From contig QBUL01000180.1 in NCBI GenBank assembly GCA_013180605.1, positions 4,899 to 39,398 on the forward strand: a stretch of 34,500 nucleotides of DNA. The letters run 5' to 3'. The notes under the pieces were generated by a model, which had not been told where the DNA came from, did no database searches, and saw only the letters and a program-made list of their open reading frames with translations. This document shows, piece after piece, positions 698 to 25,982 of this stretch (position 1 is the first letter of the stretch; the number at the start of each line of letters is the position of its first letter). Source of the stretch: Candidatus Methanophagaceae archaeon GoMg1. GTDB taxonomy: Archaea; Halobacteriota; Syntropharchaeia; Alkanophagales; Methanospirareceae. Both the position numbers and the translations under genes were made by a program.

Positions 698-3092
698 CTA
701 CATTACTCCCAGGAACAGCGTGACAGAAGACGCATCCGATAAGTTTTCCGTAGATATTTGTATGGATGAGAGCAAAGAGGTGGAATTCGGCGTTTCTTCC
801 GGTTTGATTTATGAATGGACATGGTCAGTGAATGAAGAAGCAATAAAAGAATCCGAAGGAGAAAGCTCAAATTTATCTTATGTATTTGAAGATTACGGCA
901 TTTATAACGTCTGCGTTGTGGGAGAAGGAGAAACAGTCCAGACATGTTGGAACGTTACGGTTTCGCTAGTAATAGGAGAAGAAAACGATGTTCGTGAGTT
1001 AGATGGTCTTGAAGATTACGCTTTCCAAATTTCAAAAAGACCTGAAAGAATCATTTCTATGGCGCCGAGTTGCACAGAGATATTATTTGCCGTAGGAGCT
1101 GGTGATAGTGTCGTCGGGGTTACGGAATACTGTAATTACCCCCCTGAAGTAGAAGAGAAGAAGGAAAAAGGAGAAATAGAAGAGATAGGAGGTTATTCAA
1201 CACCAAGCTTAGAGAAAATCGTGAATTTAGAGCCGGACTTGATAGTTTCTGCCTATGGAAACCCATCAGAGCTTTTATACTGGTTAGTAGACAAAGAGGA
1301 ACATCCAGGCATTGAATATCCGGTTTATGCACAAAATCCAAAGAACATTGAAGATATATTTTCACATATAAAAACAACCGCGGCGATAACGAGAAGAGGG
1401 GATAACGCCATTTCATTGCTTAACTCACTCGAAGAAAGAATGAAACGTATAACCGAGAAAGTAAAATCATTGGAAGAGGAGCAGAGACCGAACGTATTCT
1501 ACACCTGCGGCGATTTCTGGACGCCGGGAAATGATACGTTCATAAATGACGTTATCAGTGCTGCGGGAGGTAAAAGCACTGCTGCCGGCTATGGTTCTGG
1601 ATATTTCCAAATACGTCCTGATAACCTCGTTGAGGAGAATCCACAGGTGATTATCTGTCCATCAGAAAATGCACGTGAGCAAATACTGAACGATGAACAG
1701 TTGAGAGAGCTAAATGGAGTGAAATACGGCAGAATTCACGTAATCAACGACAATGTAATATGCAGACCTGGTCCGAGGATAGTAGATGCCGTTGAAACCG
1801 TTTACGGATACTTATCTGCGCTGCTTGAACCGGCTAAGACGTATCCAATGTTACAATACAATGCACAAAGGACAGGAAATGTTCCTGGAAAAGGACCTGT
1901 GACATCAAATCTCTTGTGGCAATCTCCTAATGAAACGCATGGCTGCATACAGGCAGGACCGGTTATTCATGATGGCAAGGTGTACGTAGAGACGTGGTAT
2001 TCAGGTATGGGAGGAGCGGATCCCGATGAAACCAATGCTCTTTTCTGCTTGGACGAAGACACGGGTGAAATATTATGGATGAACAAAGGCGTTTATGGTG
2101 CCTCTACGGCGGCAATAGCAGACGGGAAATTATTTGTAGGAGCGAGGAATGGAAACATAACGTGTGTTAATGGGACAGATGGAGGAATATTATGGAGTAA
2201 GAAGATAGAAGAGAGCCCAGCATGGTATGGAGTTGCATCTTCTCCACTTGTGTTCAATGAGCTGGTATATATATTGAGCTTCTCTGATGGCACGCTTCAT
2301 ACTTTCTCTTTTGATGGAACAGAGCTTTGGAATTACTCCACGGGGGGGGAAATATTCTGCTATTCCTCGCCTTCCGCTTATGGCAACAAAATATTCTTCG
2401 CCGGTAATTCGGGCGAGCATGCCTTACATTGCGTAGACTTAAACACGAGAGAAGAGGTTTGGAATTTCACAACGAAAACGGAGATAAGGGGCTCTCCTAC
2501 TATTTGGAGCGAAGAAGGCATGGTTTTCTTTACTACTAAATATATACCTACAAAGAAATATGGGATTTACGCTGTTAATATAACCACGGGCGAGGAAATT
2601 TGGCATAAGAAGCATAAATCAAGTTGGGCTTCTCCTGCTTTGAGCAATGGCAAACTATTCATCGGTGGCTCGAGTGCTGACACCACATTCTATTGTTACG
2701 ATGCAAAGAAAGGCGCTTTAATATGGAAGAATGAGGATATGGAAGGAGCGATACAGTCGTCACCGGTTGTTGTCGGTGGGAAAGTGTATTTGGGAACGAG
2801 TGAGGTTGATGGAAAGGTATATGCATTGGATGCAAACAGCGGATCAATCATTTGGAACTATACGCTTTATACTCCTCCAGGATTTGGAGGGGGATATAAT
2901 GTAGCGTCACATCCGGCTATTTCTAACCGCACCTTGTTTATAGGAGTGGACAACATAGGTGTTCTTGCGTTTAGAGACCTCAGCACAATATGTGATACCA
3001 CTGCTCCAGAAAATCCTTATTACAGCATCTCTGGCATCCATCGTAGAAATATAACGCCATCGCATGACGTTTACGCAACCAGGTTAAAATGA
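594..3092 (+). CDS. Exported BtuF-like corrinoid-binding protein fused to a PQQ-type beta-propeller
   Basis: An 832-aa exported protein. Residues 1-35 form a signal peptide with a long Leu/Val/Ile core. Residues about 45-125 look like a PKD/Ig-type domain (YEWTWSVN, GIYNVCVVGEGE). Residues about 149-411 match the periplasmic binding fold of BtuF-type corrinoid binders: SMAPSCTEILFAVGAGD near the start, VVGVTEYCNYPPEV, then VNLEPDLIVSAYG and a closing RPGPRIVDAVE. Residues about 415-800 carry repeats such as LFCLDEDTGEILW, YDAKKGALIW and YALDANSGSIIW, which are blades of a PQQ-like propeller. In this family the binding domain would hand corrinoid to BtuCD; the propeller is an addition whose role is unknown. 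A ribosome binding site (AGAGGGGGA, about 578-587) supports the ATG at 594. The C-terminus stops soon after CDTTAPENPYYSISG without an anchor, so it may be truncated. The stop overlaps the next start (ATGA). Confidence 0.82.
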   Translation: MRRSGSVNVCALLLASVLLIAVLSLISISIACASSYITPRNSVTEDASDKFSVDICMDESKEVEFGVSSGLIYEWTWSVNEEAIKESEGESSNLSYVFEDYGIYNVCVVGEGETVQTCWNVTVSLVIGEENDVRELDGLEDYAFQISKRPERIISMAPSCTEILFAVGAGDSVVGVTEYCNYPPEVEEKKEKGEIEEIGGYSTPSLEKIVNLEPDLIVSAYGNPSELLYWLVDKEEHPGIEYPVYAQNPKNIEDIFSHIKTTAAITRRGDNAISLLNSLEERMKRITEKVKSLEEEQRPNVFYTCGDFWTPGNDTFINDVISAAGGKSTAAGYGSGYFQIRPDNLVEENPQVIICPSENAREQILNDEQLRELNGVKYGRIHVINDNVICRPGPRIVDAVETVYGYLSALLEPAKTYPMLQYNAQRTGNVPGKGPVTSNLLWQSPNETHGCIQAGPVIHDGKVYVETWYSGMGGADPDETNALFCLDEDTGEILWMNKGVYGASTAAIADGKLFVGARNGNITCVNGTDGGILWSKKIEESPAWYGVASSPLVFNELVYILSFSDGTLHTFSFDGTELWNYSTGGEIFCYSSPSAYGNKIFFAGNSGEHALHCVDLNTREEVWNFTTKTEIRGSPTIWSEEGMVFFTTKYIPTKKYGIYAVNITTGEEIWHKKHKSSWASPALSNGKLFIGGSSADTTFYCYDAKKGALIWKNEDMEGAIQSSPVVVGGKVYLGTSEVDGKVYALDANSGSIIWNYTLYTPPGFGGGYNVASHPAISNRTLFIGVDNIGVLAFRDLSTICDTTAPENPYYSISGIHRRNITPSHDVYATRLK

Positions 3093-5350
3093 AAGAAAAG
3101 AAGAAGGTTTTCTCTTTATGGAATGGTGGAAAGAATAGCAGTTTAGCATGTTATAAAAAAGGGTTATTTGTCGCATTTTCTGTATTATTGGTTTTAATCT
3201 CTCTTTGGGGAACATGTGGGGGTAGCAAAATCGCCCTATGGAACAGCGTGACAGGCGATGCATCTGATAGTTTTTCAGTGGATATTCATATAGACGAGAG
3301 CAAGGAGGTGGAATTCACCGTTTCTCCTGATTCGGTTTATGAATGGACATGGTCAGTTAATAGCGAAGAAGTAAAAGAATCCGAAGGAGAAAGCTCAGAC
3401 TTATCTTATACATTTGGAGAACACGGCATTTATAACGTCAGTGTCGTAGGGGAAGGGGAAAATGGGACTGAATGTGAATGTTGGAACGTTACGGTTTGGC
3501 TGGCAATAGAAGAGGAAAACGATGTCCGGGAGTTAGACGGGCTTGAGAATTATCATTTACGGATTCCAAAAAAGCCGGAGCGAATTGTTTCTATGGCGCC
3601 GAGCGCTACGGAAATACTTTTTGCCGTAGGAGCTGGCGACAGTGTCGTCGGCGTTACAAGCTTTTGCAATTATCCCCCTGAGGTAGCGGATAAGGTAAAT
3701 AACGGGGAAATAGAGGTGATAGGCGGATATTCAACGCCAAGCAAAGAGAAAATCGTGAATTTAGAGCCGGATTTAATTGTCAGTGCTTATGGAAATCCGG
3801 CGGATATTATATATTGGTTAATAGACAAGGAGGAACATCCCGGCATTGAATATCCGGTTTATGCACAGCATCCGAAAAATTTCGATGAGATATTTACTCA
3901 TATAAAAATCACAGGAGCGATAACGAAATGCGAGGATGAGGCATCTTCTCTTGTGAATGAGCTAAAGGAGAAATTGAACGCGATAGAGGAAAAAACAGAA
4001 TTATTAGAGGAGGAACAGAGACCACGAGTATATTATGCCATGGGGAGTCTTTTCATGACTACTGGAGAAGGTACATTTCAACACGATATTATTAAGACGG
4101 CAGGAGGGAAAAATATAGCCGCAGAATATCTTCCTTCATGGGGTCCATTTAGTATCGAGCATATCGTAGAAGAAGACCCCCAGATTATCATTTACAGCAG
4201 CCACGGCAGCGAGTCTCTTGTACCCGAGCAAATAAAGAGTGCTGAACTGAAAACCGTAGATGCGATAAAAAACAATCGAATATACCCAATTAATGAAAAT
4301 ATAGTGTCAAGGCCAGGTCCGAGAGTGGTAGACGCAGTGGAAAGAGTTCATGGGAATCTATCCGGGCTTTTTAATATTCCCGGTGAAGGAAGCACAAAGA
4401 TAAAAGGTGCTTACTTTGACGTTCCTTTCATGAATTTAGAGATTTCAACGAAGGGAGATAAAAATCGTGCATTAAGGTGCAATATCACAAAAATTGAAGA
4501 AACAGAAGTGCAGAAGAAACTGCCAATAGGAAAAGAAGTTGATTTTGGCAAGAATTTTACCATCAAGGTGGAAGCAGAGAAGGATTTAGAAGAAAGATGG
4601 GGCATTGGTTTTTATAACGTGAATGAAGAAAGTTGGGAAGTTTATGAGGTCGTTGAGGAAGAGGGAGACGGCTATGGCGACGACGAAGATGGTGACCGTT
4701 CATCGTATGAAAAGGAAAAGAAGGCTATAAAAGCAGGTGAAGAAAGGACGATAGAATTAGACGATGAATGCGTGATTAACATCACAATAAAAGCAAAAGA
4801 AGATAAAGATGTGGAATTCACGAATATCTCTGTGAATGTATCAAAAGAGCTGAGCATCTCCCGCCCTCCTGCAATAGTTTATAGATATTTTAATATCACT
4901 GCGGACAATCTAACTGGAAGCGTGGAATGGCTGAAGCTGAACTTCAGCGTGAACGAATCATGGATAGCTGCCAATGCTGATAATAATACGACTGCAATCT
5001 CACTGTTCTGCTATGACTACATCAACGATACATGGGCTGAACTGAGTACAAGTGAAATAGGTGAAAGAGATAGCAAAGTCTATTACACAGCGACAAAAAC
5101 ATCCTTTGGAACATTTGCAATTTGCGCCCCGTTAAAGTTAGAGAGTGAGCAATCTCAATTACCTGCGCCTGAGGTCGAAGTAACGCCTTCGCAGACATCT
5201 ATGCCTGCACAAGGCACGCCTATACCTACCTCTACACCTACACCAAAGCCATCACCAACAGAAACGTCAGAAACATCAGGATTTGAAGCGGTGTTAGCGG
5301 TTGTTGGACTGCTTGCGGTAATGTATCTTTTGAGAAGAAAAGAGAAATGA
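3089..5350 (+). CDS. BtuF-like corrinoid-binding surface protein with PGF-CTERM anchor
   Basis: A 753-aa tandem paralog of the preceding gene. After an odd N-terminus (residues 1-23) comes a hydrophobic segment at about 25-45, a PKD/Ig-like domain (YEWTWSVNSEE), and a BtuF-type binding domain at about 162-430 (SMAPSATEILFAVGAGD, VVGVTSFCNYPPEV, VNLEPDLIVSAYG, RPGPRVVDAVE). Residues about 440-580 are an acidic domain of unknown type. Residues about 585-690 match the PGF-pre-PGF domain (RPPAIVYRYFNIT, then SFGTFAICAP). A Thr/Pro linker leads to a terminal GFEAVLAVVGLLAVMYLLRR, the PGF-CTERM signal for archaeosortase processing and lipid anchoring. It should capture corrinoid at the cell surface for BtuCD encoded downstream. 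The start ATG lies inside the upstream stop. Residues 1-23 resemble the start of a PP-loop ATPase rather than a signal peptide, and there is no good later start codon, so this end may be chimeric. Confidence 0.85.
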   Translation: MKEKKKVFSLWNGGKNSSLACYKKGLFVAFSVLLVLISLWGTCGGSKIALWNSVTGDASDSFSVDIHIDESKEVEFTVSPDSVYEWTWSVNSEEVKESEGESSDLSYTFGEHGIYNVSVVGEGENGTECECWNVTVWLAIEEENDVRELDGLENYHLRIPKKPERIVSMAPSATEILFAVGAGDSVVGVTSFCNYPPEVADKVNNGEIEVIGGYSTPSKEKIVNLEPDLIVSAYGNPADIIYWLIDKEEHPGIEYPVYAQHPKNFDEIFTHIKITGAITKCEDEASSLVNELKEKLNAIEEKTELLEEEQRPRVYYAMGSLFMTTGEGTFQHDIIKTAGGKNIAAEYLPSWGPFSIEHIVEEDPQIIIYSSHGSESLVPEQIKSAELKTVDAIKNNRIYPINENIVSRPGPRVVDAVERVHGNLSGLFNIPGEGSTKIKGAYFDVPFMNLEISTKGDKNRALRCNITKIEETEVQKKLPIGKEVDFGKNFTIKVEAEKDLEERWGIGFYNVNEESWEVYEVVEEEGDGYGDDEDGDRSSYEKEKKAIKAGEERTIELDDECVINITIKAKEDKDVEFTNISVNVSKELSISRPPAIVYRYFNITADNLTGSVEWLKLNFSVNESWIAANADNNTTAISLFCYDYINDTWAELSTSEIGERDSKVYYTATKTSFGTFAICAPLKLESEQSQLPAPEVEVTPSQTSMPAQGTPIPTSTPTPKPSPTETSETSGFEAVLAVVGLLAVMYLLRRKEK

Positions 5351-5514
5351 ACGAAATGGAGATAACAAGATTGATGAATGACCTGAGGAGGCTACTTCAG
5401 AATATGTCTGAATTTGAAGGAGGCAAAGGAGAAATAGAGGAAAGGCTTGAGGAGATAAAAAGTGAGTTGGGTTCGTGGTTTATTGACGGCTATCTGCCTT
5501 ATCAGGCGCCCTAA
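5347..5514 (+). CDS. Small coiled-coil-like protein, GSWFI family copy 1
   Basis: A 55-aa protein whose ATG overlaps the stop of the BtuF-like surface protein (ATGA), which suggests translational coupling. It is charged and helical, with ITRLMNDLRRLLQN near the start and IEERLEEIKSELGSWFI in the second half, then YLPYQAP. No signal peptide or membrane segment is visible. A clear relative lies at 25725-25898, right after the second CobN-like gene: both share ITR, LLQN, IEERxEEIKxELGSWFI and a closing YQ. Conservation at the protein level in two places following large surface-protein genes argues that this is a real gene. I do not recognise the family; a small cytosolic helper of the surface system is only a guess. 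Confidence 0.72.
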   Translation: MNEMEITRLMNDLRRLLQNMSEFEGGKGEIEERLEEIKSELGSWFIDGYLPYQAP

Positions 5515-5556
5515 CACTTTCTTTCTAAAGAAAGAACCTATACTAAGAAAGGAGAA
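5512..5556 (+). repeat. Family 2 hairpin element
   Basis: The stop of the small gene runs into CTTTCTTT at 5517-5524, separated by CT from its exact inverse AAAGAAAG at 5527-5534, then ACCTATACTAAGAAAG. The same layout (TAACAC, TTTCTTTCT, AAGAACCTGTGCTAAGAAAG) follows the related small gene at 25898 and recurs near 31440. It may act as a transcription terminator or processing site. The end of the element contributes AAAGGAGA, the ribosome binding site for the radical SAM gene at 5566. Confidence 0.55.
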
Positions 5557-5565
5557 AACACATCT

Positions 5566-6330
5566 ATGAATATTTACCATATAAGCTACACATCAAAATT
5601 TGTAGGTGAAAGGATGGCAATGCTGTCGTTTAAAGGCTGTAACTTCGATTGCATTGGCTGTATCCGGAAGAGAAACGAATGCGACATCTATGCGGAGGAA
5701 AGGCGATACATTGATTGGACTTTTGAAAATATAGTAAAGGAATTAGAGGAGTTAAATCCACACAGGATATATCTTGGCGGATACGAACCTACACTCGACC
5801 CGGATTTAATAAGGACAATCGAAAATCTCTCAAAACTTGATGCTCATATCGTGTTAATGACAAATGGAAGCAAAATAGACGATGGATATGCGATAGAATT
5901 GAAAGAAGCGGGGGTAAACGAAGTTATTGTCGGTGTAAAGGCATTCGATAGGAAAAAGCATCTTTATTACACAAAAAGAAGCAACGAGGAGGTGCTGAAT
6001 GCGATAAAGAATCTGGCAGCGATAGAGGACGCTTATTTCAGACTGCAGGTAGAGACGATTTTGCTTCCAGAAATAAATGACCCGGGGGACATAGAAGAAC
6101 TGGCAATTTTCATCTCGCAGATAAATCCAACCATTTCTCTCTTCATCGAGCCTTGGATACCTATGGAGGGGGTGGAGTTTGAAGAACCCAAGAAGGTAGA
6201 TTTAATTGATGCGGTTTCAAGAGCGATGAGGCATCTATACGTCGTATCCTACCACCCTTTGTATTCCGAGATAAAAGAGATACGGAAAACGCCAAGGAAG
6301 GCGAAATTTATTGAATTTCTACCAGATTAA
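5566..6330 (+). CDS. Radical SAM protein of unknown substrate
   Basis: A 254-aa soluble protein. Cys25, Cys29 and Cys32 form the CX3CX2C motif (GCNFDCIGC) that binds the 4Fe-4S cluster and S-adenosylmethionine in the radical SAM family. YLGGYEPTLDPDLI is the SAM-binding GGEP-like segment (here GGYEP), and VLMTNGSKID follows as the usual second strand. The length fits a minimal radical SAM barrel resembling activase-type members, without an extra SPASM cluster domain. A strong ribosome binding site (AAAGGAGA) precedes the ATG. It lies between the BtuF-like genes and btuC-btuD, so a role in corrinoid metabolism or in modifying a neighbour is suggested by context only. The reaction cannot be named from sequence. 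Confidence 0.8.
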   Translation: MNIYHISYTSKFVGERMAMLSFKGCNFDCIGCIRKRNECDIYAEERRYIDWTFENIVKELEELNPHRIYLGGYEPTLDPDLIRTIENLSKLDAHIVLMTNGSKIDDGYAIELKEAGVNEVIVGVKAFDRKKHLYYTKRSNEEVLNAIKNLAAIEDAYFRLQVETILLPEINDPGDIEELAIFISQINPTISLFIEPWIPMEGVEFEEPKKVDLIDAVSRAMRHLYVVSYHPLYSEIKEIRKTPRKAKFIEFLPD

Positions 6331-9064: not shown

Positions 9065-9100
9065 GTTGTGGGTAGGGTATTGTAAGCGCAATGGTTACCC

Positions 9101-9150
9101 ATTTGGGTTATAACTGTTATCAAAAATTTGAAAATAGAAACCTTTATATA
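9101..9150 (+). promoter_or_regulatory. Promoter of the cobalt-transport operon with GTTATAAC palindrome
   Basis: ATTTGGGTTATAACTGTTA at 9101-9119 contains the perfect palindrome GTTATAAC. It is followed by TGAAAATAGAAA (a BRE-like purine stretch) and the TATA box CTTTATATA at about 9142-9150. The same ordered blocks occur at 15036-15083 upstream of the first CobN-like gene. The TATA box lies about 75 bp before the cbiM start, so the message would have a leader of about 50 nt. The palindrome may be a regulator site shared by the two operons; the regulator is unknown. Confidence 0.65.
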
Positions 9151-9223
9151 CGTCTAACCTGCTATCTACTCATAAAATGAAGAAAGGGGATGAAAAAAGA
9201 AGTACAGAGGTGATAAAAAAAAC

Positions 9224-9871
9224 ATGCATATATCTGATGGTGTTCTGTCGGCACCGGTGTTGGCTGCGGGATGGATAATAACCGCAATTTTTATAGCGTT
9301 AGCGATTTGGTGGAGCAAAAAGAAAGGAATAGAAGTGGAGATGATACCAAAGTTATCCGTGATGACAGCGGTATTTTTTGTCGTTTGTCTTGTTCATATA
9401 CCAATAGGACCGACTTGCGTGCACTTTATGCTCGATGGTTTACTTGGGATAATGCTTGGAATACTTTCATATCCCGCTTTTTTCATCGGACTTGTCCTCC
9501 AAGCGTTTCTTTTTCAGTTTGGAGGGGTAACAACTATCGGGATAAATACGGTGAATGTGGGGATACCCGCATTGATTGCTTATGTCATATTTCAGAGAGG
9601 AATGAAGTCAGAGCTGTTATCGTCGAGGAGGGGATTTTCAGCGGGGGTATTTGGCGCTATTGCAGGAGGAGTTGCAGTGCTTCTGGTTGCGGTTTTCACT
9701 GCTGGTGCTCTTATTGCCAGTGGTGAGCAATTTACCGGAGTTGCAGTCGCACTTGTAGTCACACACATTCCCGTAATGATAATAGAAGCAGCAGTTGTTG
9801 GTTCTGTCGTTGCTTTTCTGGCAAGAGTTAAACCAGAGCTGATAGGAAATTTAGGGGGTGATAAGAAATGA
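9224..9871 (+). CDS. cbiM: Cobalt ECF transporter substrate-binding membrane subunit CbiM
   Basis: A 215-aa membrane protein whose N-terminus MHISDGVLSAPVLAAGWI is the hallmark of CbiM/NikM: the free N-terminal Met-His and a later His are known to chelate the metal in this family. Seven or so hydrophobic segments follow, with HIPIGPTCVHFMLDGLLGI and FGGVTTIGINTVNVGIPAL as conserved blocks. It is the substrate-specific S-component that works with CbiQ and CbiO. Cobalt rather than nickel is inferred from the cobalamin genes all around; the sequence alone cannot settle this. The ribosome binding site AGGTGAT lies 9 bp before the ATG. The next gene overlaps by 4 bp (ATGA), so this is an operon. 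Confidence 0.93.
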   Translation: MHISDGVLSAPVLAAGWIITAIFIALAIWWSKKKGIEVEMIPKLSVMTAVFFVVCLVHIPIGPTCVHFMLDGLLGIMLGILSYPAFFIGLVLQAFLFQFGGVTTIGINTVNVGIPALIAYVIFQRGMKSELLSSRRGFSAGVFGAIAGGVAVLLVAVFTAGALIASGEQFTGVAVALVVTHIPVMIIEAAVVGSVVAFLARVKPELIGNLGGDKK

Positions 9872-10329
9872 AAAGAAAGTTCGTTGCTATTTTAGCTCTG
9901 CTTTTAGTGCTCTCCTGCGTAAGCATAAGTGAAGTGAGTGCCCACCGTTTGTTAATAGACCATGAAATAGGAGAAATAGGGATAAAAGCTTATTTTGAAG
10001 GTGGGAGCCCCTGTCGAGATGCAAACGTAAAAGTATATGATAATGAAGGCAATTTATATCTGGAAGGCGTAACAGACGACAAAGGGAAGTTTGGGTTTCC
10101 TCCGAAGATAGGCATGGAAGAATACACGGTGGCTGTTGATGCAGTTCACATGCCTGGTCATAAAGCAGAAACGGTGATAAACCTGAGTCAAGCAGCAGCG
10201 GGTGCTGGTAGTGCTGGTGGAACAGAAATGCCGTTATACACGAGAGTTATCGCAGGATTTGGGTATATAATTGGTTTAGCGGGAGCTGCAATGGTGTATA
10301 TGAACTGGAGGCGGGACAAAAAAATATGA
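9868..10329 (+). CDS. NikL/CbiN-like exported partner of CbiM
   Basis: A 153-aa protein with a signal peptide (residues about 1-25, ending near EVSAHR), an extracytoplasmic beta-rich domain (about 26-105), a short Ala/Gly linker and one membrane helix (about 125-145) followed by RRDKKI. The domain resembles carboxypeptidase-regulatory-type folds (ANVKVYDNEGNLYLEGVTDDKGKFGF). This layout fits the accessory proteins NikL or CbiN that sit beside the M-subunit in nickel/cobalt ECF transporters and load metal onto it. The His right after the likely cleavage site (AHRLLIDHEIGE) is typical of NikL. The start overlaps the cbiM stop. Assignment to the group is fairly safe; the metal is inferred. Confidence 0.75.
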   Translation: MKRKFVAILALLLVLSCVSISEVSAHRLLIDHEIGEIGIKAYFEGGSPCRDANVKVYDNEGNLYLEGVTDDKGKFGFPPKIGMEEYTVAVDAVHMPGHKAETVINLSQAAAGAGSAGGTEMPLYTRVIAGFGYIIGLAGAAMVYMNWRRDKKI

Positions 10330-10375
10330 AGGGAGATAAAAAGACGGGAGTGGTAAGTAGATATTTTTAAAAAAA

Positions 10376-10383
10376 AGGAGGTG
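10376..10383 (+). promoter_or_regulatory. Very strong ribosome binding site
   Basis: AGGAGGTG is a near-perfect anti-16S match 11 bp before the ATG at 10395. It follows a run of A residues and suggests that the helical His-bearing protein is made in larger amounts than its operon partners. Confidence 0.6.
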
Positions 10384-10394
10384 AAAAAAAGAAT

Positions 10395-11126
10395 ATGAAC
10401 ACGAAAAGAATGGTTGGAATTGTTGCAGTGGCAATAGCAATGCTGTTGGTCATAACGAGCGCTTCGCCAGTCATGGCGCAAGATGTATCCACATTGGTGG
10501 AAAAAATAGACAAAAATATGGCGGAGCTTAAAGAAGCCGCAGAGGTCATGCACGAGGAGACGAAAGTGATCATCCATGGTGTCGAAGGTATGCCGGATGA
10601 AATGAAAGCTACGGCTAAGACAGTTCATCTGAGCAGCCACGCTCTCAAGCACATTGAGGTTTATATGGAAAGCTATATCGGGAAGCTTGACACCTATAAA
10701 GCCGAGCCTGAGAAGAACAAAGCAAAAATGTTGGTTACTGTGGGAAAAATCGAAGCACTTCGGAAACTGTATCAAGACACTATAGATGCAGGTGACTTTG
10801 TAACTACTATGAGGTTGCCGGTTACAGGTAAATCGCCGTATGACTTGATACATGTACTTATAGAGAACCCGGATGTCCAGGCATCACCGGAAGCCATAAG
10901 TGCTGCAGGCGATGTACACACTGCTGTGCATGATCTCGACGATGCAGCCCAAGCTATGAGGCTCAATTTAGAAGAACTTGAACATGCATTAGCAGAACTT
11001 GAAGAACCAACGACAGCAGCAGCAGCAGCGCCGACACCCGCACCGAAAGCGCCGGGATTCGAAGCAGTATTCGCAATTGCAGGTATTTTAGCAGTTGCCT
11101 ACATGGTGTTTAGAAGGAACAGGTGA
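10395..11126 (+). CDS. Surface-anchored helical His-bearing protein with PGF-CTERM tail
   Basis: A 243-aa exported protein of no family I recognise. Residues 1-28 are a signal peptide (ending near SPVMAQ). Residues about 30-200 are strongly helical and coiled-coil-like and carry nine histidines in short segments such as VHLSSHALKHIE, VMHEETKVIIHG and DVHTAVHDLDD. An Ala/Pro/Thr linker leads to PGFEAVFAIAGILAVAYMVF plus a basic end, the PGF-CTERM signal that places it on the outer face of the membrane. It sits inside the cobalt ECF operon, between the CbiM partner and cbiQ, where other lineages encode metal-delivery proteins. A cobalt-capturing role is a reasonable inference from place and His content, not something the sequence proves. 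The strong ribosome binding site supports the start. Confidence 0.8.
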   Translation: MNTKRMVGIVAVAIAMLLVITSASPVMAQDVSTLVEKIDKNMAELKEAAEVMHEETKVIIHGVEGMPDEMKATAKTVHLSSHALKHIEVYMESYIGKLDTYKAEPEKNKAKMLVTVGKIEALRKLYQDTIDAGDFVTTMRLPVTGKSPYDLIHVLIENPDVQASPEAISAAGDVHTAVHDLDDAAQAMRLNLEELEHALAELEEPTTAAAAAPTPAPKAPGFEAVFAIAGILAVAYMVFRRNR

Positions 11127-11157
11127 TTACTGCTATAAATAAACAATTTTTCCCTTA

Positions 11158-11178
11158 TTTTTTTTTTGGGGGGGGGGG
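11158..11178 (+). terminator. T10 tract followed by G11 tract
   Basis: Ten T residues (11158-11167) are followed directly by eleven G residues (11168-11178), 32 bp after the stop of the His-bearing protein gene. An oligo-T run on the coding strand is the usual archaeal intrinsic termination signal, so partial termination before cbiQ is plausible. The G-run is unusual and may be prone to length change or sequencing error. Confidence 0.45.
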
Positions 11179-11238
11179 AAAAGCAGAGGTAGAGCATGGG
11201 TGCTTCAATGGCATATATTTGGAGGAAGGTGAAGAGAA

Positions 11239-12015
11239 ATGATAGAATATCCCGAGATAGACAGGTATGCATCGCTTGATTCGCCGATGCATCGCTTTGA
11301 CCCGAGAGCAAAAGTAATTGCCTTCCTTTTTCTTATTTTTTCTATCGTTCTCCTCAATGATTTAAAGCTTGTTCTTATTGGCTTTATCGTTTCTATCCTC
11401 TTTCTCATCGCTTCAAAACTACCGTTTCATTTTGTTATTCAGCATTTGAAAGGGGTCTCTTTATTTATCCTCCCTTTTCTTGTCATTATGCCCTTTACAG
11501 TGAAAGGGAATGAAATCTTCAGCTTCTACGCTATAAAAGTGACCTACGAAGGTTTAAGATATGGTATTTTAGTAGTTCTAAAGGCTTTTTCTGCGGTTAT
11601 GCTCATTTTCCCGATGATTGCGACCACGAAGTTCGAAACGACGCTGAAAGCACTGGATAAGTTAAAGGTACCGAATATTCTCGTCCAGATGCTTATGTTT
11701 ACGTATCGCTACCTCTTTGTTTTTGTGAATGTGTTCCAAAGGTTATTGATCGCGATGGAATCAAGAGGGTTCAAACTGGGAACTAGTTCATACGCATTGA
11801 GAACGATAGGTAACGCGCTGGGAATGCTTTTTGTTCGAAGTTACGAGAGGGCAGAACGCGTATATTTGGCAATGCGGTCACGCGGATATGCGGGGAGCCA
11901 GAAGACGCTGGTGGGATTTAAAATGTGTACGAAGGACTATGTATTGGCAGTTTTTATTATTGCGTTTGCGGTTTGTTTGCATATAGTTTGTTATGCAGGA
12001 GTAGGAGTGGTGTGA
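11239..12015 (+). CDS. cbiQ: Cobalt ECF transporter transmembrane coupling subunit CbiQ
   Basis: A 258-aa membrane protein of the CbiQ/EcfT family, which couples ATP hydrolysis in CbiO to CbiM. Five or six hydrophobic segments are visible. The two coupling helices carry the family Ala-Arg-Gly-type motifs: AMESRGFKLG near residue 170 and AMRSRGYAG near residue 210. The N-terminus SPMHRFDPRAKVIAFL is typical. The ribosome binding site (GGAGGAAGGTGA) fits the ATG at 11239. It is followed 6 bp later by cbiO, and the M-accessory genes lie upstream, so the order is the usual one of the operon with one extra gene inserted. Confidence 0.93.
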   Translation: MIEYPEIDRYASLDSPMHRFDPRAKVIAFLFLIFSIVLLNDLKLVLIGFIVSILFLIASKLPFHFVIQHLKGVSLFILPFLVIMPFTVKGNEIFSFYAIKVTYEGLRYGILVVLKAFSAVMLIFPMIATTKFETTLKALDKLKVPNILVQMLMFTYRYLFVFVNVFQRLLIAMESRGFKLGTSSYALRTIGNALGMLFVRSYERAERVYLAMRSRGYAGSQKTLVGFKMCTKDYVLAVFIIAFAVCLHIVCYAGVGVV

Positions 12016-12021
12016 AGAAGA

Positions 12022-12936
12022 ATGAGAAAAGAAGCGATAACCATAAGGAACCTCTGTTACACTTATCCCGACGGTACAAAAGTGTTGGAAGATGTAAGTT
12101 TGGAAGTGTATGAGGGCGAAAGAATTGCGATAGTGGGACCGAACGGAGCAGGCAAAACGACTCTTTTGCTGCATCTTAATGGAATACTACGTGGTAGTGA
12201 TGGACAGGTAGACGTGTTCGGTAAGAGCGTGGACAAGGTGAAAAGAGAAGAAATAATAAAGGATGTGGGTATTGTTTTTCAGGACCCGGATGACCAGTTG
12301 TTCATGCCCACGCTATTCGATGACTTAGCTTTTGGTCCGATAAACATGGGTTTAAAAGAAGATGAGGTGCGGGAGCGAGTAGAAAAAACCATTTTGTCGC
12401 TTGGACTCATGGGTTATGAGAACAGGTGTCCACATCATCTCAGTGGTGGCGAGAAGAAAAAAGCAGCGCTGGCTGCGGTTATGTCCATGGAGCCGAGGAT
12501 ACTGGTGCTTGACGAGCCGACTGCCAATCTCGACCCGAAGAGCCGTGCAGAGTTGATAAAAATAGTGAAGGACCTGAACGAACGAGAAGGGATTACCGTG
12601 ATAATGGCGACGCATGACGTAAATGCTGTCCCGGCACTTGCCGACCGTGTGTTCGTGCTGAACAAGCGGGTGATTGCGGAAGGCACGGCACAGGAAATAT
12701 TTTCGGATGGCGACCTGATGAATGCGAACAATCTGGGGGTGCCCGAAGTGTTCAAGCTGTTTGAAGTGCTGCGGTGTTTTGGCTACAACTGCGAAGAGCT
12801 GCCGCTGTCAATAGACGAAGCGATTGAACACCTGACGAGGACGGTGGAGGTTAATGGTGGGCACATTCATCTGCATATCCACGAGCATACACATGACGAG
12901 GTGAAGAAATTGAGGAGTAAGTATGAGCACCATTAA
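12022..12936 (+). CDS. cbiO: Cobalt ECF transporter ATPase CbiO with His-rich tail
   Basis: A 304-aa ABC ATPase. Walker A is GPNGAGKTT (about residues 39-47), the Q-loop region reads GIVFQDPDDQLFMPT (typical of ECF ATPases), the signature is LSGGEKKKAALA, Walker B is ILVLDEPTANLDP, and the H-loop is ATHDVNAV. It energises CbiM-CbiQ. The last 30 residues are an added His-rich tail (GGHIHLHIHEHTHDE and a closing YEHH) that could bind cobalt or nickel at the cytosolic face as a sensor or buffer; that is inference. The ATG follows cbiQ by 6 bp. A T-rich stretch (CTTTTCTTTTTT, about 12938-12949) after the stop could end the transcript. Confidence 0.92.
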   Translation: MRKEAITIRNLCYTYPDGTKVLEDVSLEVYEGERIAIVGPNGAGKTTLLLHLNGILRGSDGQVDVFGKSVDKVKREEIIKDVGIVFQDPDDQLFMPTLFDDLAFGPINMGLKEDEVRERVEKTILSLGLMGYENRCPHHLSGGEKKKAALAAVMSMEPRILVLDEPTANLDPKSRAELIKIVKDLNEREGITVIMATHDVNAVPALADRVFVLNKRVIAEGTAQEIFSDGDLMNANNLGVPEVFKLFEVLRCFGYNCEELPLSIDEAIEHLTRTVEVNGGHIHLHIHEHTHDEVKKLRSKYEHH

Positions 12937-12983
12937 ACTTTTCTTTTTTAGAACCCAGACAAAAAATATGGAGGTGAGGAGAA

Positions 12984-13724
12984 ATGGCAGAGATAAGTAA
13001 CCTTGTTACAGTAGGTGTGCTTATAGGCGTAGCAATTCTAGCATTAAAAACAGGCTTAGGATGCGGTTTCGCCAGTTTAAAGAGAAGGGAGATTGTTTAC
13101 ATAGCGTTTATTTATTTTAGCGCCTCTATCGTCCTTAGCTATTTAGTGGGGGTTATCGCTTTGGATGTAACGCAAAATATACTTGCAACAGGTGTTATAA
13201 TGCATCTTATCATCGCAACAGGACTCATGTATTTCGGTATAAAAACGAAGAGGGAATGGCTTTCTTATGGCAATGACCTTTCAAGGAAAACTTTCCTATT
13301 GCTCTCTGTTCCATGCCCGGTATGTTTAACAGCGACATTTTTAGCTTGTTTGATGCTATCTCAGCTCACCGACATCAGCAACCTGTGGATAGGTACCCTA
13401 GTGGGCGTGATCTTCTTTATCGGTGTATGCTTCTTTTCATTTGCGGTTTCTTCAATCGCAAGGGTTTTCAAAATCAAAAACCCTTCCACACTTGGAACGG
13501 TTATGTTATTATTTGGTCTATTTTACCTTTTATCGCCTTTAATAATCCCTGCATATATTCAGGCTCAAAGCATTCCAATCCCTAAGTTCTCGGTAGATTA
13601 TCACAAGATTTTTATTTCATTCTTAGTGATGACCTTTCTTATAGGGCTTGGATTTTTAATGGATAAGCATAAAAGATTGAAGAAGAAAAAAGGGGGCGAA
13701 ACATGGATGCATCTTCAGGAATAA
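12984..13724 (+). CDS. DUF2162 family polytopic membrane protein
   Basis: A 246-aa protein with about seven or eight membrane helices and a basic cytosolic end (KHKRLKKKKGG). It matches what I recall of DUF2162, annotated as a predicted transporter in methanogens and found next to MotA/ExbB-like, DUF2149 and CobN genes. A pair of cysteines, Cys111 and Cys114 in VPCPVCL, lies at the start of a helix, and LGCGFASL occurs near residue 28; paired cysteines could bind metal or form a disulfide. The ribosome binding site GGAGGTGAGG (about 12970-12979) is strong. The 3' end overlaps the next gene by 22 bp, so the two are translated together. Substrate unknown; metal or tetrapyrrole movement is a guess from context. 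Confidence 0.78.
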   Translation: MAEISNLVTVGVLIGVAILALKTGLGCGFASLKRREIVYIAFIYFSASIVLSYLVGVIALDVTQNILATGVIMHLIIATGLMYFGIKTKREWLSYGNDLSRKTFLLLSVPCPVCLTATFLACLMLSQLTDISNLWIGTLVGVIFFIGVCFFSFAVSSIARVFKIKNPSTLGTVMLLFGLFYLLSPLIIPAYIQAQSIPIPKFSVDYHKIFISFLVMTFLIGLGFLMDKHKRLKKKKGGETWMHLQE

Positions 13725-14320
13725 TCGGGGCAATGTTCATGATTTCGAACTCGCTGCTCTATCCCGTAATTATTATACTGCTTGGGCTGGTGGCATGGTC
13801 GATTATTTCCATCGGGCAGTTTTTGTCAGAATATGCATCGAGAAGCAGGGATATAACTAAGCTAAAGGCGGGATGTAGTGATGCAACGAAATGTATCCAG
13901 GAGCGAGATTACAAAAAAGCCGCAGAAGCTCTGAAGACAAGTGGCTCTAATGACCTACTCAGAGATTTTTTAGATGACATTGCAGAATGTCTAAAAGAAA
14001 ACAAATTCTCGGTCGAGGTAGAGAAGCTGCTTCAGGACTATGAACTAAGGATAACAAGAGAGCTTGAAAAGGCGAGGTTGGTGGTAAAGCTGGGACCTAT
14101 GTTCGGCTTGATGGGCACATTGATACCGTTAGGACCCGCGCTAATGGGGCTCTCAACAGGAGATATCCAGCAGCTTGTAACTAATATGGTTGTTGCATTT
14201 AGCACTACGGTTCTCGGGCTTCTTACCGGTGGTATAGCATATGCAATCTTAATAGTCAAAAAGAGATGGTACACGCAGGATTTGAGTGATATGGAATACG
14301 TGGTGGAGATGTTAAGATAA
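13703..14320 (+). CDS. MotA/TolQ/ExbB-like proton channel subunit
   Basis: A 205-aa membrane protein with the ExbB/TolQ layout: one helix near the N-terminus (about residues 12-36), a large cytosolic loop, then two helices close together (about 130-152 and 162-186). The segment LVVKLGPMFGLMGTLIPLGPAL and the following AFSTTVLGLLTGGIAY are the signature of the MotA/TolQ/ExbB channel family, which uses ion flow to drive a partner protein. No TonB, outer-membrane receptor or flagellar gene is nearby. The partner here is probably the DUF2149 protein encoded next, and the driven machine probably the surface CobN-like proteins. Start ATG overlaps the DUF2162 gene; ribosome binding site AGGGGGCG. 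Confidence 0.85.
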   Translation: MDASSGIIGAMFMISNSLLYPVIIILLGLVAWSIISIGQFLSEYASRSRDITKLKAGCSDATKCIQERDYKKAAEALKTSGSNDLLRDFLDDIAECLKENKFSVEVEKLLQDYELRITRELEKARLVVKLGPMFGLMGTLIPLGPALMGLSTGDIQQLVTNMVVAFSTTVLGLLTGGIAYAILIVKKRWYTQDLSDMEYVVEMLR

Positions 14321-14321
14321 A

Positions 14322-14666
14322 ATGAGAAGGCGGAGAAGGCGGTTGATTTTGGATGATGATGAAGACCCGCTGGGTGGGGTGGCAAACCTGTTTGACGCCG
14401 CGATGGTCTTTGCCGTTGCACTGCTCATCGCACTCGTAATGTCAGCGAGTGTGCCGGAGCTCTTGAATCCAACTGCAGATATAACCGTGGTGAAGAATCC
14501 CGGAAAAGAGAACATGCAGGTGATTATCAAAAAAGGGCAGGAGATAAAGGTGATGAACATGACAGAAGAATTGGCGGGCGGTCAAGGTATGAAATTGGGA
14601 ACTGCATACCGGTTGGCAACCGGAGAGACAATATACGTGCCGGAAAATGCGACAGGGAAGAATTAA
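14322..14666 (+). CDS. DUF2149 protein, ExbD-like single-helix partner
   Basis: A 114-aa protein that starts one base after the ExbB-like stop. It has a basic cytosolic start (MRRRRRRLI), an acidic stretch DDDEDPLGGVANLFDAA, one membrane helix (about residues 24-46), and an outside domain of about 65 residues. This is the ExbD/TolR topology, and it fits DUF2149, which accompanies ExbB-like and CobN-like genes in methanogens (from memory). The acid residue before the helix (FDAAMVFAVALL) is in the position where ExbD has its key Asp. I infer that it transmits motor movement to the outside domain of the next genes' products. Confidence 0.78.
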   Translation: MRRRRRRLILDDDEDPLGGVANLFDAAMVFAVALLIALVMSASVPELLNPTADITVVKNPGKENMQVIIKKGQEIKVMNMTEELAGGQGMKLGTAYRLATGETIYVPENATGKN

Positions 14667-14736
14667 CTAACCCCTCAGCTTACACAACACTTTTTCTTTT
14701 TCACAAAAAACTTTTTTGCGAAGCAAAAGCCTTTAC

Positions 14737-14769
14737 AAAACTTTTAAGAAAAGTTTTATCAAAAACGCT
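14737..14769 (+). repeat. 33-bp repeat shared with 25915-25947
   Basis: AAAACTTTT, a 3-base loop, AAAAGTTTT and ATCAAAAACGCT occur here and at 25915-25947 with no other difference than the loop, which is AAG here and CTT there. The two loops are inverse complements, as if the hairpin tip had flipped. It belongs to family 2. Confidence 0.65.
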
Positions 14770-15035
14770 TCGCGGAAATACAAGTTTCTTTGGTAAAGCT
14801 TTCTTTTCTAAAGAAACATTCATGACCCATAGGGACATCCATGAGCATGAAAATAATAAAGTATTTTCATACCAAAGGTTTGTGCTAAAAGAAAAAGAAA
14901 TATGTTACGTCCGCTTCACTTTCCTTATTCCATCATACGTTTCAAAATTTCTTTCTCGCGGGAATCTCGTAGTTTCTCTTTTATCTTCCTCTGTACTATT
15001 ATGAGGATAAAGATGACCCCTTAACTTTGTTATCT

Positions 15036-15083
15036 ATTTGAGTTATAACTCTTACCATAATATGAAAAATAGAAAGTCTTATA
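15036..15083 (+). promoter_or_regulatory. Promoter of the CobN operon, twin of the cbiM promoter
   Basis: ATTTGAGTTATAACTCTTA (15036-15054) again contains GTTATAAC, here within a longer palindrome GAGTTATAACTC. TGAAAAATAGAAA (15063-15075) and the TATA box CTTATAT follow in the same order and spacing as at 9101-9150. A start of transcription about 25 bp after the TATA box would fall near 15105, giving a leader of only about 15 nt before the ATG at 15119. Confidence 0.65.
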
Positions 15084-21156: not shown

Positions 21157-24100
21157 ATGATGAAGAATAAAAGTTGTGGGTTAGCGGTGTTGGTGTTGTT
21201 GGCGTTGTTCGCGGCGCAGATATTTGCGCCATTAGCGGTTGCACAGGCACAGTCGGAAGGTGATGAGACGACTGTGAATGAGAACTTGAGTTTATCTGCG
21301 AGTGCGTCAGAATATACCAGTGCGAAAGCTATAACTGACGAATCAGAGAAGAATGAAATAACCTTTGTGCTTGGAACGGATGAAAATTTAATCTCGCTTG
21401 AAAACGCATCAATGGATGCTACTGTGAACGCTACAATTGAAGTTATAATATACAATGCAACAGAATCGAAATTGGCGAATTTCAGCAACGGAAGCGTTGT
21501 TTTTCTCGCTTCTCTTGACAACGAAACCGTTGCGAGCATAAGTCAGACGATAAATGAAAGTGCGTATGTGTTTGCATATAATCTCAGTACAAATATAAGC
21601 ATTGGGTATGTTGAGGATATAAACATCACGAAGTACTGGGTCTATGGCAGTGATGAGAACATCGAGAATCTCATTTTATACATGAATAACACCTTTTATG
21701 GTGGCGATACAGCGGTGAGTTCGCCTGAGCCGCCTGAGGGTAGGGCTAAGATTGCGTTTGTACTCTCCCAACCGTGCGATATAAGCCTTGTGAATCTGGT
21801 ATCTAACGATCATTTCATCAGCGATATGATGAATGTAACAACTTATTCCGCGCGCTCGGGTGATAATCTAAGTTTCAATTTGAGTGGTCAAGATGTAATT
21901 CTTTTATATCATCTTATGCCTGCTGTGGTTGAAGAATTGACTAAGACAGTCAATGATGCTAAAAACAACAGTGCAGATGTTATCGCGATCAGCCCCTCTG
22001 AACAATCATTCGATATGCACAATGTGAACCTCTCAGATCCAGAATATTCAGACATCAAGAAGTATTTAGAATATCCCTCAGAGGAGAACACCAAACGTCT
22101 TATAGTATTTATAGGTGTTAAATTCTGTAATGTCAGCGAAGAGATATTACCGCCAATATCAAGACCAATTTACGGAATCTACCATCCTTATGCACCAGAG
22201 ATTTTTACGAATACGACCGGTTATTTCGAATGGTATAATTCCACTGGTAGATATAATTCATCAAATCCAACAGTAGGAATTGTAACTGGCAGTTATAAAC
22301 GTATGGACAGAGATTCTGCGTTGCTGAATGTGTTGATAGAATCATTTGAATCGAGAAATGTGAATGCTATCGTCTCAACGTATACGTACCACGACCCAAA
22401 TTCTACAGAGTATCTGATGGAAGATGGTAAGCCGGTTGTGGATAGCGTTATTATCATATCCCGCGGGAGTCGGCTCTATTATAAAAACGCATCAAAAGGC
22501 ATAGCGGATTTACAGCAGTTGAATGTTACTGCACTCAATGGGATTCGATTATTCTATAGTATGACCCAAGAGGAATGGGAAGCAGGTCCGCACGGTCTCC
22601 CACCAATACAATCTTATCAGGTAGCTTTTGCAGAGTTGGATGGTATAATCGAGCCGATTGTTATCTGTGGAAAGGCAATTGATCCGATAACTGAAGTTGA
22701 ATATAACAAACCGATCGAGTACCAGATCGAATGGCTGACTAATCGAACAATTTCGTGGATGAGATTACATCGCATGGATAATTCAGACAAGAAGATCGTC
22801 ATACCGTACTATAGCGCAGGTGGAGGCAAGGCGAATGTTGGGTCAGACATTGATTATTATCTTGATACGCAAGCGAGTCTTACGAATCTGTTAGTTGCAA
22901 TGAAGAAGAGGGGCTACGATCTTGGAACTAAACCATTGCCAAACAAAACAGAGCTTGCTGAGTTGATGGCACATCAAGGTAGCAATTTCGGGACATGGGC
23001 ACCCGGAGAACTGAATAAAAGGGTACAGCAGGGAAATGTAATACTGATACTGAAGAGCGAATACCTCGACTGGTTCGATGAACTTCCTGAGAATAAAAGG
23101 AATGAAATGATAGAGCGGTGGGGAACTCCACCTGGTGAGATCATGGTTTTTGAAAACAAAACCGGACAATATCTTGTCATCCCAAAGATTCAGTTTGGTA
23201 ACGTATGGCTTGCCCCGGATCCCACATGGGGATGGCTTCAGAATGAATCTGTGATGTACTATAACGGTTCGATACCACCGACTCATCAGTGCCTTGCATT
23301 CTATCTCTGGCTGAAGAAAGAATTCGGGGCTGATGCAATCTTTGCTATATTTACGAGCATAGAAGCGATGCCCGGCAAAGAGTGCGGTCTGTCAGCACAC
23401 GATTGGGGTGCCATTCTTCTCCAGGACATGCCGTTGATCCATGTACTTCCGATGGATGCGGAGGGAATATTTGACAGACGGCGGGCTAACATGCTCATTG
23501 TGGACTTTATGACGCCAACGATCGTTCCATCTGGCTTGTATGGAAATCTGTCGAGTTTGCAACAGGGGATAAGTTTCTATAATCAAGCAGCAGATGAAGT
23601 ATTGAAAGGGAGATATATGGATAGGATATTGGAAGAATGCCGGAATTTAAGCATCGATAGAGACTTAGAAGTTGATCTTAATGTAATTGCAAGCAACACA
23701 ACGGTATTTGAAGGATTTCTTATTCGATTGAGTAACTACTTACAAGAGTTGAAGACCGAATACATGCCATACGGTTCGCATACATTGAGCGAACCGCCGA
23801 CCGGTGATAGTTTGGTGGCACTGGTGGAGGCAATGCTCGGTGACGAATTTAAACATAATGTTTCTGTGATAAATTCATCCGAAGGACTTACAACGAGGCT
23901 GCTAACTGAAGTATTACTCAACGATTTAAGTCCCGCTGATGCACAAAATAAGGTCTTGGGGACTGTATCGTTAGGCATCACACAAGATTTGAATCTTGCA
24001 GTAGAATATGCAAACAGGATAGCTGCATGCACTATCGAAATACCAAGGATATTGGATGCTCTGGAAGGTAAATATATTCCACCTGGTCCTAATGGCGATC

Positions 24101-25713
24101 CCATAAGGAACCCGGACGCTCTGCCAACTGGAAGAGACCTATGTACCTTCGATGAGCGGCTTATACCAACAGAAGAAGCGTGGGAAGTTGGTAAAGATAT
24201 GGCAGACCATTTATTGGCGCAGCGTATTAATGAGACCGGAAAGTATCCACGAAAGATAGCGTTTTTACTTTGGTCAATAGAGACATCGAGGCATCAGGGC
24301 ATAATGGAATCAGAGATATTTTATTTACTTGGTGTAAAGCCGATCTGGGACAAGAGGGGGCGTGTGAAAACAGTTGAACTGATAAGTTCAAGTGAACTCG
24401 GGAGACCGCGGATAGACGTAGTTGTTACGACCTCGGGGTCATACCGAGATATGTTCTCCGGCAAAATCAAATTAATCGATAAAGCAGTTCGGTTAGCTGC
24501 TCAATCGAACGATACTGAGTATCCCAATTATGTCAAAGAAGATTCTGAATTGATCTATCGGGCATTGATAGGCGCGGGCTATAACGTATCTGAGGCACGT
24601 AGTCTTTCGATGGCACGGATATTTTCTCCTCCGCCTGACTCATATACACCGGGACTACAAAATGCAATCCCGGCAAGCGATACGTGGGAAGATACAGAAA
24701 AGCTTGCAGAACTCTATATTGACAGGATGGGTTACGTATACGGAGAAGAGATTTGGGGCGAACATCTAACCGATCTGTTCACGCAGAATCTCAATGGAGT
24801 AGAAGTAAGTGTTTTCAGCCGCAGCTCGAACGTTTACGGCGTATTAGACCACCCGATGGTTGCTACTTACTTTGGAGGATTGAATTTAGCTGTTAAGAGT
24901 GTCTCAGGAAATGCACCTGATATGTATATAAATAACCTAAGAGAGCCAAACAATCCAAAAGTCGAGACATTGAGTCGATTCTTAAATAGAGAACTCCGTG
25001 CAAGATACTGCAATCCGAAATGGATTCAAGGAATGATGGAGCATGGATACGATGGAACAAGGTATATGGCACAATTCACAGAAGACCTGTGGATGTGGGA
25101 TGTCGTTACGCCAGACCTCATCACAGAAGATATGTGGAATCAAGTCTATGACGTATATATCCAGGACAAATACGATCTCGGAACAAAGGACTTCTTCGAC
25201 AGCAACAACCCGTACGCACAACAATCCATCACCGCGAGAATGCTCGAAACGATAAGAAAAGGCTATTGGAATCCATCAGAAGACGTAAAAACAACCCTTG
25301 CAGAGACATACCAGAAATCAGTCGAGGAACACGGTGTAACATGCTGCCATCATACCTGTGGGAACCTGCTGTTACAAGATTATATGCAGGGCGTACTTTC
25401 GGCTCCGGAACAATCTCCGGAACAGAAAACATATTCCGGAGGTGGCGGGTCTCGTAGAATTACAGAAGAAGAAATCGGTGAAGGTGCCACAAACATGACA
25501 GAAATGGTGGGCGTGAGTAAGGAGGGGGAAGAATTGAAGGAACCGCCAGAGAAAACAGCGGAGGAGAAGAAAGGAAAAGTAATGAAAGAGGAGAAGCCTG
25601 CGGAATCACCGGCATTTCCTATATCCGGAGCCCCGTTGATGGGAATTATAGCAGTGATTGTGGTTTTAGTGCTGATTGGAATTGGATTAGGGCTTAAACG
25701 AAGGAAAATGTAA
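21157..25713 (+). CDS. CobN2: surface CobN-like paralog with a degraded chelatase loop
   Basis: A 1518-aa tandem paralog starting 2 bp after the CobN1 stop, with its ribosome binding site (GGAGGAAAAGG) inside the CobN1 end. Signal peptide about 1-33, then an Asn/Thr-rich glycosylation-prone region (about 34-195) in place of the CobN1 repeats, and one uninterrupted CobN-like region (about 195-1410). The loop that in CobN1 reads [12 protein letters not shown] is shortened here: residues 729-741 are [13 protein letters not shown], so the His and Trp are gone and two residues are deleted while Glu736 remains. The cluster TCCHHTCGN is kept (Cys1396, Cys1397, His1398, His1399, Cys1401). The charged linker and terminal membrane helix are almost the same as in CobN1. 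It is probably a non-catalytic partner or a binding protein. Many NxS/T sites fit a surface location. Confidence 0.83.
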
Positions 25714-25724
25714 GAGATAAGAGA

Positions 25725-25898
25725 ATGGATGAGATAACAAGAGTGATAAAGGAGCTGTTCTGGCTACTTCAGAACGTGAATATAGCTGAAGAAGATTATA
25801 ACGTCGGAATCGAGATTGAAGAACGAATTGAGGAAATAAAACAAGAGTTGGGCTCATGGTTTATCAGCGATTATCCAAAGCTTTATCAGGGCTCATAA
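25725..25898 (+). CDS. Small coiled-coil-like protein, GSWFI family copy 2
   Basis: A 57-aa protein that starts 11 bp after CobN2, with GAGATAAGAGA upstream as a weak ribosome binding site. It carries MDEITRVIKELFWLLQN, IEERIEEIKQELGSWFI and a closing YQGS. It is a paralog of the protein at 5347-5514: same size, same motif order, and an element of the same family after its stop. It is charged and helical, with no signal or membrane segment. Retention of the protein motifs despite changes in the DNA suggests selection for the product. It may be a cytosolic or assembly factor for the surface corrinoid proteins; this is inference from its two positions only. Confidence 0.72.
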   Translation: MDEITRVIKELFWLLQNVNIAEEDYNVGIEIEERIEEIKQELGSWFISDYPKLYQGS

Positions 25899-25982
25899 CA
25901 CACTTTCTTTCTTTAAAACTTTTCTTAAAAGTTTTATCAAAAACGCTGTGCAAAAAGAAAGAACCTGTGCTAAGAAAGAAAT
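25896..25982 (+). repeat. Family 2 hairpin element after the small gene
   Basis: TAACACACTTTCTTTCTTT leads into AAAACTTTT (25915-25923), CTT, AAAAGTTTT (25927-25935), ATCAAAAACGCT and then AAAGAACCTGTGCTAAGAAAG. It combines the ends seen at 5512-5556 with the 33-bp core seen at 14737-14769. The rest of the spacer up to cbiA at 26082 holds no gene. Confidence 0.6.

Follow-up and report, generated by a model that had tools for sequence, protein, structure and literature searches.

Introduction

Small proteins made from metal-responsive promoters are known from bacteria, where MntS and the Fur-regulated Fbp are examples. In cyanobacteria, NblA, a helical hairpin of about 60 residues, is induced by starvation and serves as an adaptor in phycobilisome degradation. 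Among methane archaea, MtrI and MtrR of Methanosarcina mazei are small soluble proteins that regulate by protein contact (PMC12774963, PMC13370731). MtrI, a helical protein of 68 residues with a stand-alone gene (MM_2401), inserts its C-terminus into the corrinoid-dependent Mtr complex, has termini that read MKCEAC...DVED according to the primers, and is reported in Methanosarcinales families only, not in ANME-1 (PMC12774963).

Here we describe the GSWFI proteins, which were recognized from two short genes in a stretch of 34,500 nucleotides (hereafter the window) from Candidatus Methanophagaceae archaeon GoMg1 (contig QBUL01000180.1, positions 4,899 to 39,398). Like MtrI and MtrR they are small and belong to methane archaea, and MtrI provides a precedent for the insertion of a tail by a small archaeal protein. 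In contrast to MtrI, with its MKCEAC start and DVED end, they possess no conserved cysteine and end in YQ[AG]S; judged by termini and distribution, they are not members of the MtrI family. The resemblance to NblA, a helical hairpin of similar size that acts as an adaptor during nutrient shortage, is an analogy of logic only. NblA comes from another phylum, and its profile was absent among the Pfam matches listed, both in single-member scans and in the best 25 of 60 families for all 55 members. MntS and Fbp share small size and metal-responsive promoters, but they are single proteins for which no sequence relation was found, whereas GSWFI forms a set of paralogs across several metals.

The two window copies and their neighbours

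A preliminary description of this DNA had proposed that two short reading frames, each behind a large surface-protein gene, form an unannotated small-protein family. Both are present with the sizes and coordinates that it gave (Table 1), and the ATG of copy 1 indeed sits inside the stop of the BtuF gene (ATGA overlap). The two products align with 31 identities (60% identity), including the blocks it had named as common to both: ITR, LLQN, IEERxEEIKxELGSWFI and YQ. Their Smith-Waterman score is 115, while 5000 shuffles reach 50 at most, and nonsynonymous differences (pN 0.25) are less frequent than synonymous ones (pS 0.53). The contig, 39 kb long, carries a third copy outside the window, 3.6 kb upstream of it (G000:C2:1304-1471). 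The product of the BtuF-like gene also matches the NCBIfam model for PGF-CTERM-anchored substrate-binding proteins, at a score under the model's cut-off. In genome G017, the counterpart of copy 1, which likewise lies behind a BtuF gene, is decaying: it is truncated to 34 residues followed by stops (L049:10552-10657).

Table 1. Position of the GSWFI genes, their upstream neighbours and the candidate operators in the window.
Feature	Position	Strand	Remarks
GSWFI small protein, copy 1	5347..5514	+	55 aa; last gene after the BtuF/PGF-CTERM gene; family search, selection test
GSWFI small protein, copy 2	25725..25898	+	57 aa; 11 bp past the CobN stop
BtuF-like substrate-binding protein with PGF-CTERM anchor	3089..5350	+	Pfam PF01497 and PF18204; upstream neighbour of copy 1
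CobN-like chelatase subunit with C-terminal membrane anchor	21157..25713	+	PF02514, C-terminal sequence; upstream neighbour of copy 2
Candidate corrinoid/cobalt-cluster operator TTACCCATTTGGGTTATAACTGTTATCAAAAA	9095..9126	+	Before CbiM; motif also before copy 3, the BtuF-PQQ gene and CobN
Candidate corrinoid/cobalt-cluster operator, 7 mismatches	15030..15061	+	Precedes the CobN transcription unit whose last gene is copy 2

A radical SAM gene (5566-6330) starts 51 bp downstream of copy 1. Together with the leader-like helix and conserved C-terminal block of the small protein, it would fit a RiPP precursor matured by the radical SAM protein. This appears extremely improbable, as the radical SAM gene is confined to BtuF clusters (again at L049 and L076) among the neighbourhoods listed, which show no maturase conserved beside the small gene, and the radical SAM protein stays below every maturase cut-off.

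The sequence GAACCTNTNCTAAGAAAG, which follows both window copies, was considered as a common regulatory element and rejected as a dispersed intergenic repeat. More specifically, GAACCT[GA]T[GA]CTAAGAAAG lies at window positions 5534-5551 and 25961-25978, inside an A/T-rich inverted repeat (ACACTTTCTTTCT...AAAGAAAGAACCTGTGCTAAGAAAG), and about 22 copies with at most 1 mismatch are found in the host genome. Rfam models identified no RNA in the window.

A large family under purifying selection

An iterated HMM search of the fetched loci returned 72 matches, about 62 of them full length, describing proteins of 40-60 residues with 1-4 copies per genome. Within the host's family (ANME-1/Methanophagales), most genomes have matches at E<1e-3, often 2-4 in each, and the named relatives are Methanophagales/ANME-1 assemblies together with a few bearing other labels. 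The query matters here: a scan of the genome collection with P0001 alone was insensitive and gave 0 matches, whereas alignment A3 as query gave 23. Pfam, NCBIfam and PDB searches revealed no convincing relative, and the viral collection contained no GSWFI relatives. Weak Pfam matches (DUF5623 in 12 members, EncFtn-like, MazG) were set aside, being absent below E 0.1 when ten diverse members were scanned singly. GSWFI is a large, previously unnamed family found in methane-oxidising (ANME-1) and probably some methane-producing archaea, and genes this short are easily lost during annotation.

Across 22 pairs, dN/dS ranges mostly between 0.16 and 0.77 and is below 1 in all informative pairs but one; the single value above 1 (2.84) carries little weight because the two sequences concerned are very closely related and offer too few synonymous changes. 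Copies 1 and 2, like nearly all the informative pairs, bear the mark of purifying selection. The proposal of an unannotated family has thereby withstood both checks suggested for it, with homologs abundant in relatives and synonymous and nonsynonymous rates unequal.

A predicted helical hairpin with a constrained C-terminal tail

The predicted fold is a two-helix hairpin followed by a tail. AlphaFold places the helices at residues 3-21 and 27-44 and leaves the tail loose, at modest confidence (pLDDT 68, pTM 0.42, final residues <50), and a Foldseek search with this fold returned nothing significant, only chance helical matches. Conservation is highest at the C-terminal end, at K, E, L, G, W (invariant), F, Y, [AG] and S, and the tail follows the consensus ELG-S-W-F-I-x-x-Y-x-L-Y-Q-[AG]-S-COOH. 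Exactly 11 residues separate the invariant Trp from the C-terminus in 52 of the 55 sequences, and the final residue is S or A in 54 of 55. This constant distance suggests that the free C-terminal end is recognized by something.

These features also bear on the possibility of an acidic metal-buffering or chaperone peptide with an MntS-like role. Acidic helices and a location in metal operons would suit such a peptide, but no conserved Cys or His column, as expected of the ligands of a soft-metal chaperone, occurs across the 55 sequences, and the residues conserved best (W, F, G, L, Y and the C-terminal Ser) are not ligands. We therefore regard a buffering role as very unlikely.

Genomic neighbourhoods

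In the commonest arrangement (group A, about 30 loci), a DtxR/MntR-type regulator, an IdeR/DtxR box, the small gene and a DUF2325 gene (PF10087) follow one another, sometimes then joined by FeoAB; variants carry ZnuA/ABC-3 (L095) or FeoA/FeoB (L072). No surface protein adjoins the small gene in this group. Group B comprises BtuF clusters, with BtuF-like genes adjoining about 10 members, and in group C the small gene follows CobN at a gap of always 11 bp, in five genomes (the window, L063, L093, L097, L098). Group D is formed by the tungstate protein WtpA, which exceeds its NCBIfam cut-off, and its permease, while CobT marks group G and CbiX-like proteins group I. No obvious metal link was seen at the DUF362/DUF2334 group (L042-L047, L050), at L056/L058 or at L100.

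Overall, a metal gene is present within 3 kb at 39 of the 50 loci with flanks, compared to 32 of 580 control positions (5.5%) in ANME-1 genomes, a ratio inflated to some degree since the metal-gene query proteins were mostly taken from GSWFI neighbourhoods. This biased query set does not account for the number of different metals involved. The common denominator of the contexts is metal and metal-cofactor acquisition, and the surface BtuF and CobN genes are one context among several.

The pairing with CobN and BtuF that was first described consequently holds for part of the family, namely the five genomes that keep the CobN spacing and the members beside BtuF-like genes, and fails at the roughly 30 loci without an adjacent surface protein. 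The helper role built upon it is not borne out by this largest group, where the gene stands between a DtxR/MntR-type regulator and DUF2325 behind an iron-type operator. In its most explicit form, such a helper would sit in the cytosol, bind the basic inner tail of CobN or BtuF, and aid assembly or coupling. The constant spacing after CobN and the stop-start overlap with BtuF in the window speak for it, but most members adjoin the DtxR regulator and DUF2325 instead, and the tail does not change with the neighbour, which makes this role rather unlikely.

Two metal-type operators

A perfect TTAGGNNNNCCTAA, the 14-bp IdeR/DtxR consensus proposed in PMC8464063, lies 33-42 bp (about 35) ahead of the small-gene start in group A, behind a TATA-like element, placing the operator of a DtxR/IdeR iron regulon at the promoter. 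The 887 kb of fetched loci contain 25 perfect sites against 1.3 expected, all just upstream of a GSWFI gene (23 assigned by script, two, at L066 and L120, by eye). At other sites, both in these archaea and in others, the sequence also stands ahead of FeoA-FeoB, FeoB, a DtxR gene and DUF2325 with no small gene beside it, and is thus an iron-type box not dedicated to the family. GSWFI genes are not its only setting genome-wide, and a reversed-pattern control gives a comparable count, so that our claim rests on its position and not on count alone. Since the regulator resembles MntR as well as iron-type DtxR, the metal that group A senses is deduced from FeoAB.

At three loci (L202, L211, L201) the DUF2325 gene comes directly after the iron-type box with no GSWFI gene between, suggesting that this operon can lose its small gene. 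The only perfect TTAGGNNNNCCTAA found in the host genome (G000:C155:9138-9151, L153) stands before a gene for a secreted membrane-anchored protein and is accompanied by no GSWFI gene; the same protein is present in G023 (L210).

The proximity to regulators raises the possibility that the small protein is an anti-repressor or co-regulator of a neighbouring metal-sensing winged-helix protein of the DtxR/MntR or ArsR type. DtxR is encoded directly upstream at about 20 loci, including L054 and L057 where DUF2325 is not adjacent, and an ArsR-like HTH, recognized by eye, comes after host copy 3 and after the L127 member. We nevertheless consider it unlikely, as the CobN, WtpA and Methanotrichaceae-like contexts have no such regulator beside the gene. 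Gene order in group A could also point to a leader or attenuation peptide governing the downstream gene, given that the small gene is the first ahead of DUF2325 at a spacing of about 14-41 bp. Frequently, however, it closes the unit and no co-directional gene lies close behind (L097, convergent groups), and selection acts on helix 1 and tail alike, rendering a leader peptide highly improbable.

In corrinoid clusters a second motif, TTACCCATTTGGGTTATAACTGTTATCNAAAA, was found before the small gene in host copy 3, L049, L076-L083 and L060, and likewise before BtuF (L049, L077, L039), CbiM (window 9095) and CobN (window 15030; L063). The 39-kb host contig holds 4 sites with 0-8 mismatches; in a 400 kb control, just 2 sites come within 11 mismatches. 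These sites were recovered by a matrix including the host's own site and by a longer consensus; the strict form found none in the window, and with a matrix from other genomes alone, in an earlier weight-matrix test, the motif was only suggestive. From the window (9095-15061) and L004, it appears to be an undescribed operator that several ANME-1 genomes use for BtuF, CbiM, CobN and small genes in common. We assume that its control of copies 1 and 2 would run through the operon, both being last in their units. The site at 15030-15061 overlaps the TTG start (15038) of a 2038-aa CobN reading frame, and the true CobN start is therefore probably further downstream.

Candidate shorter relatives outside ANME-1

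Short reading frames ending in ELGEWMAAEYY[TA]PHQAS were found in two further families, beside genes that we take to be methanogenesis marker 14 and mtrH. With their profile, matches extend to a family (f23), presumably Methanotrichaceae, with members such as ...YLKEIGDWLVEEYYEPHQAS, and in several of its genomes a double-CxxC zinc-type protein of ~50-115 aa is encoded within about 10-20 bp after the small gene. An hhalign comparison of the Methanotrichaceae-like and f20 short relatives with the ANME-1 set gave a 91% probability of homology and E 1e-6 over 28 columns, with weak E-values for single genomes.

Discussion

A family under selection, its constrained tail, its linkage to metal operons and two metal-type operators form the basis on which we tentatively favour one explanation: GSWFI proteins may be small soluble regulators or adaptors that are made at metal or metal-cofactor shortage and dock with their shared tail on a common partner. 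Regulation of the GSWFI genes is supported, while their mechanism is something we infer. Under metal limitation, each paralog would be made from the uptake operon of one metal: an iron paralog behind the DtxR box with DUF2325 and FeoAB, a cobalt/corrinoid paralog behind the second operator with BtuF, CbiM and CobN, and a tungstate paralog with WtpA. The tail ELGSWFIxxYxLYQ[AG]S-COOH, near-constant in every context, would bind one partner common to all paralogs, since the neighbours are unrelated yet the tail is unchanged. A differing first helix, or the amount or timing of expression, would give each paralog its own client or signal.

A bolder version, which we hold to be doubtful, is that these paralogous adaptors, one per metal, run a metal-sparing response in ANME-1 and related methane archaea. 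The common tail would then dock on one central machine (e.g. Mtr, methyl-CoM reductase or the proteasome), throttling or dismantling metal-rich enzymes.

The candidate shorter relatives occur in complete genomes, apparently of cultivated Methanothrix, where direct testing is feasible. ANME-1 archaea account for much of the methane consumption in marine sediments and rely heavily on iron, cobalt, nickel and tungsten, and to our knowledge the way in which they sense and ration these metals is largely unknown. As a multi-copy family linked with the operons for iron, corrinoid/cobalt and tungstate, GSWFI offers a concrete handle on metal sensing and rationing in ANME-1.
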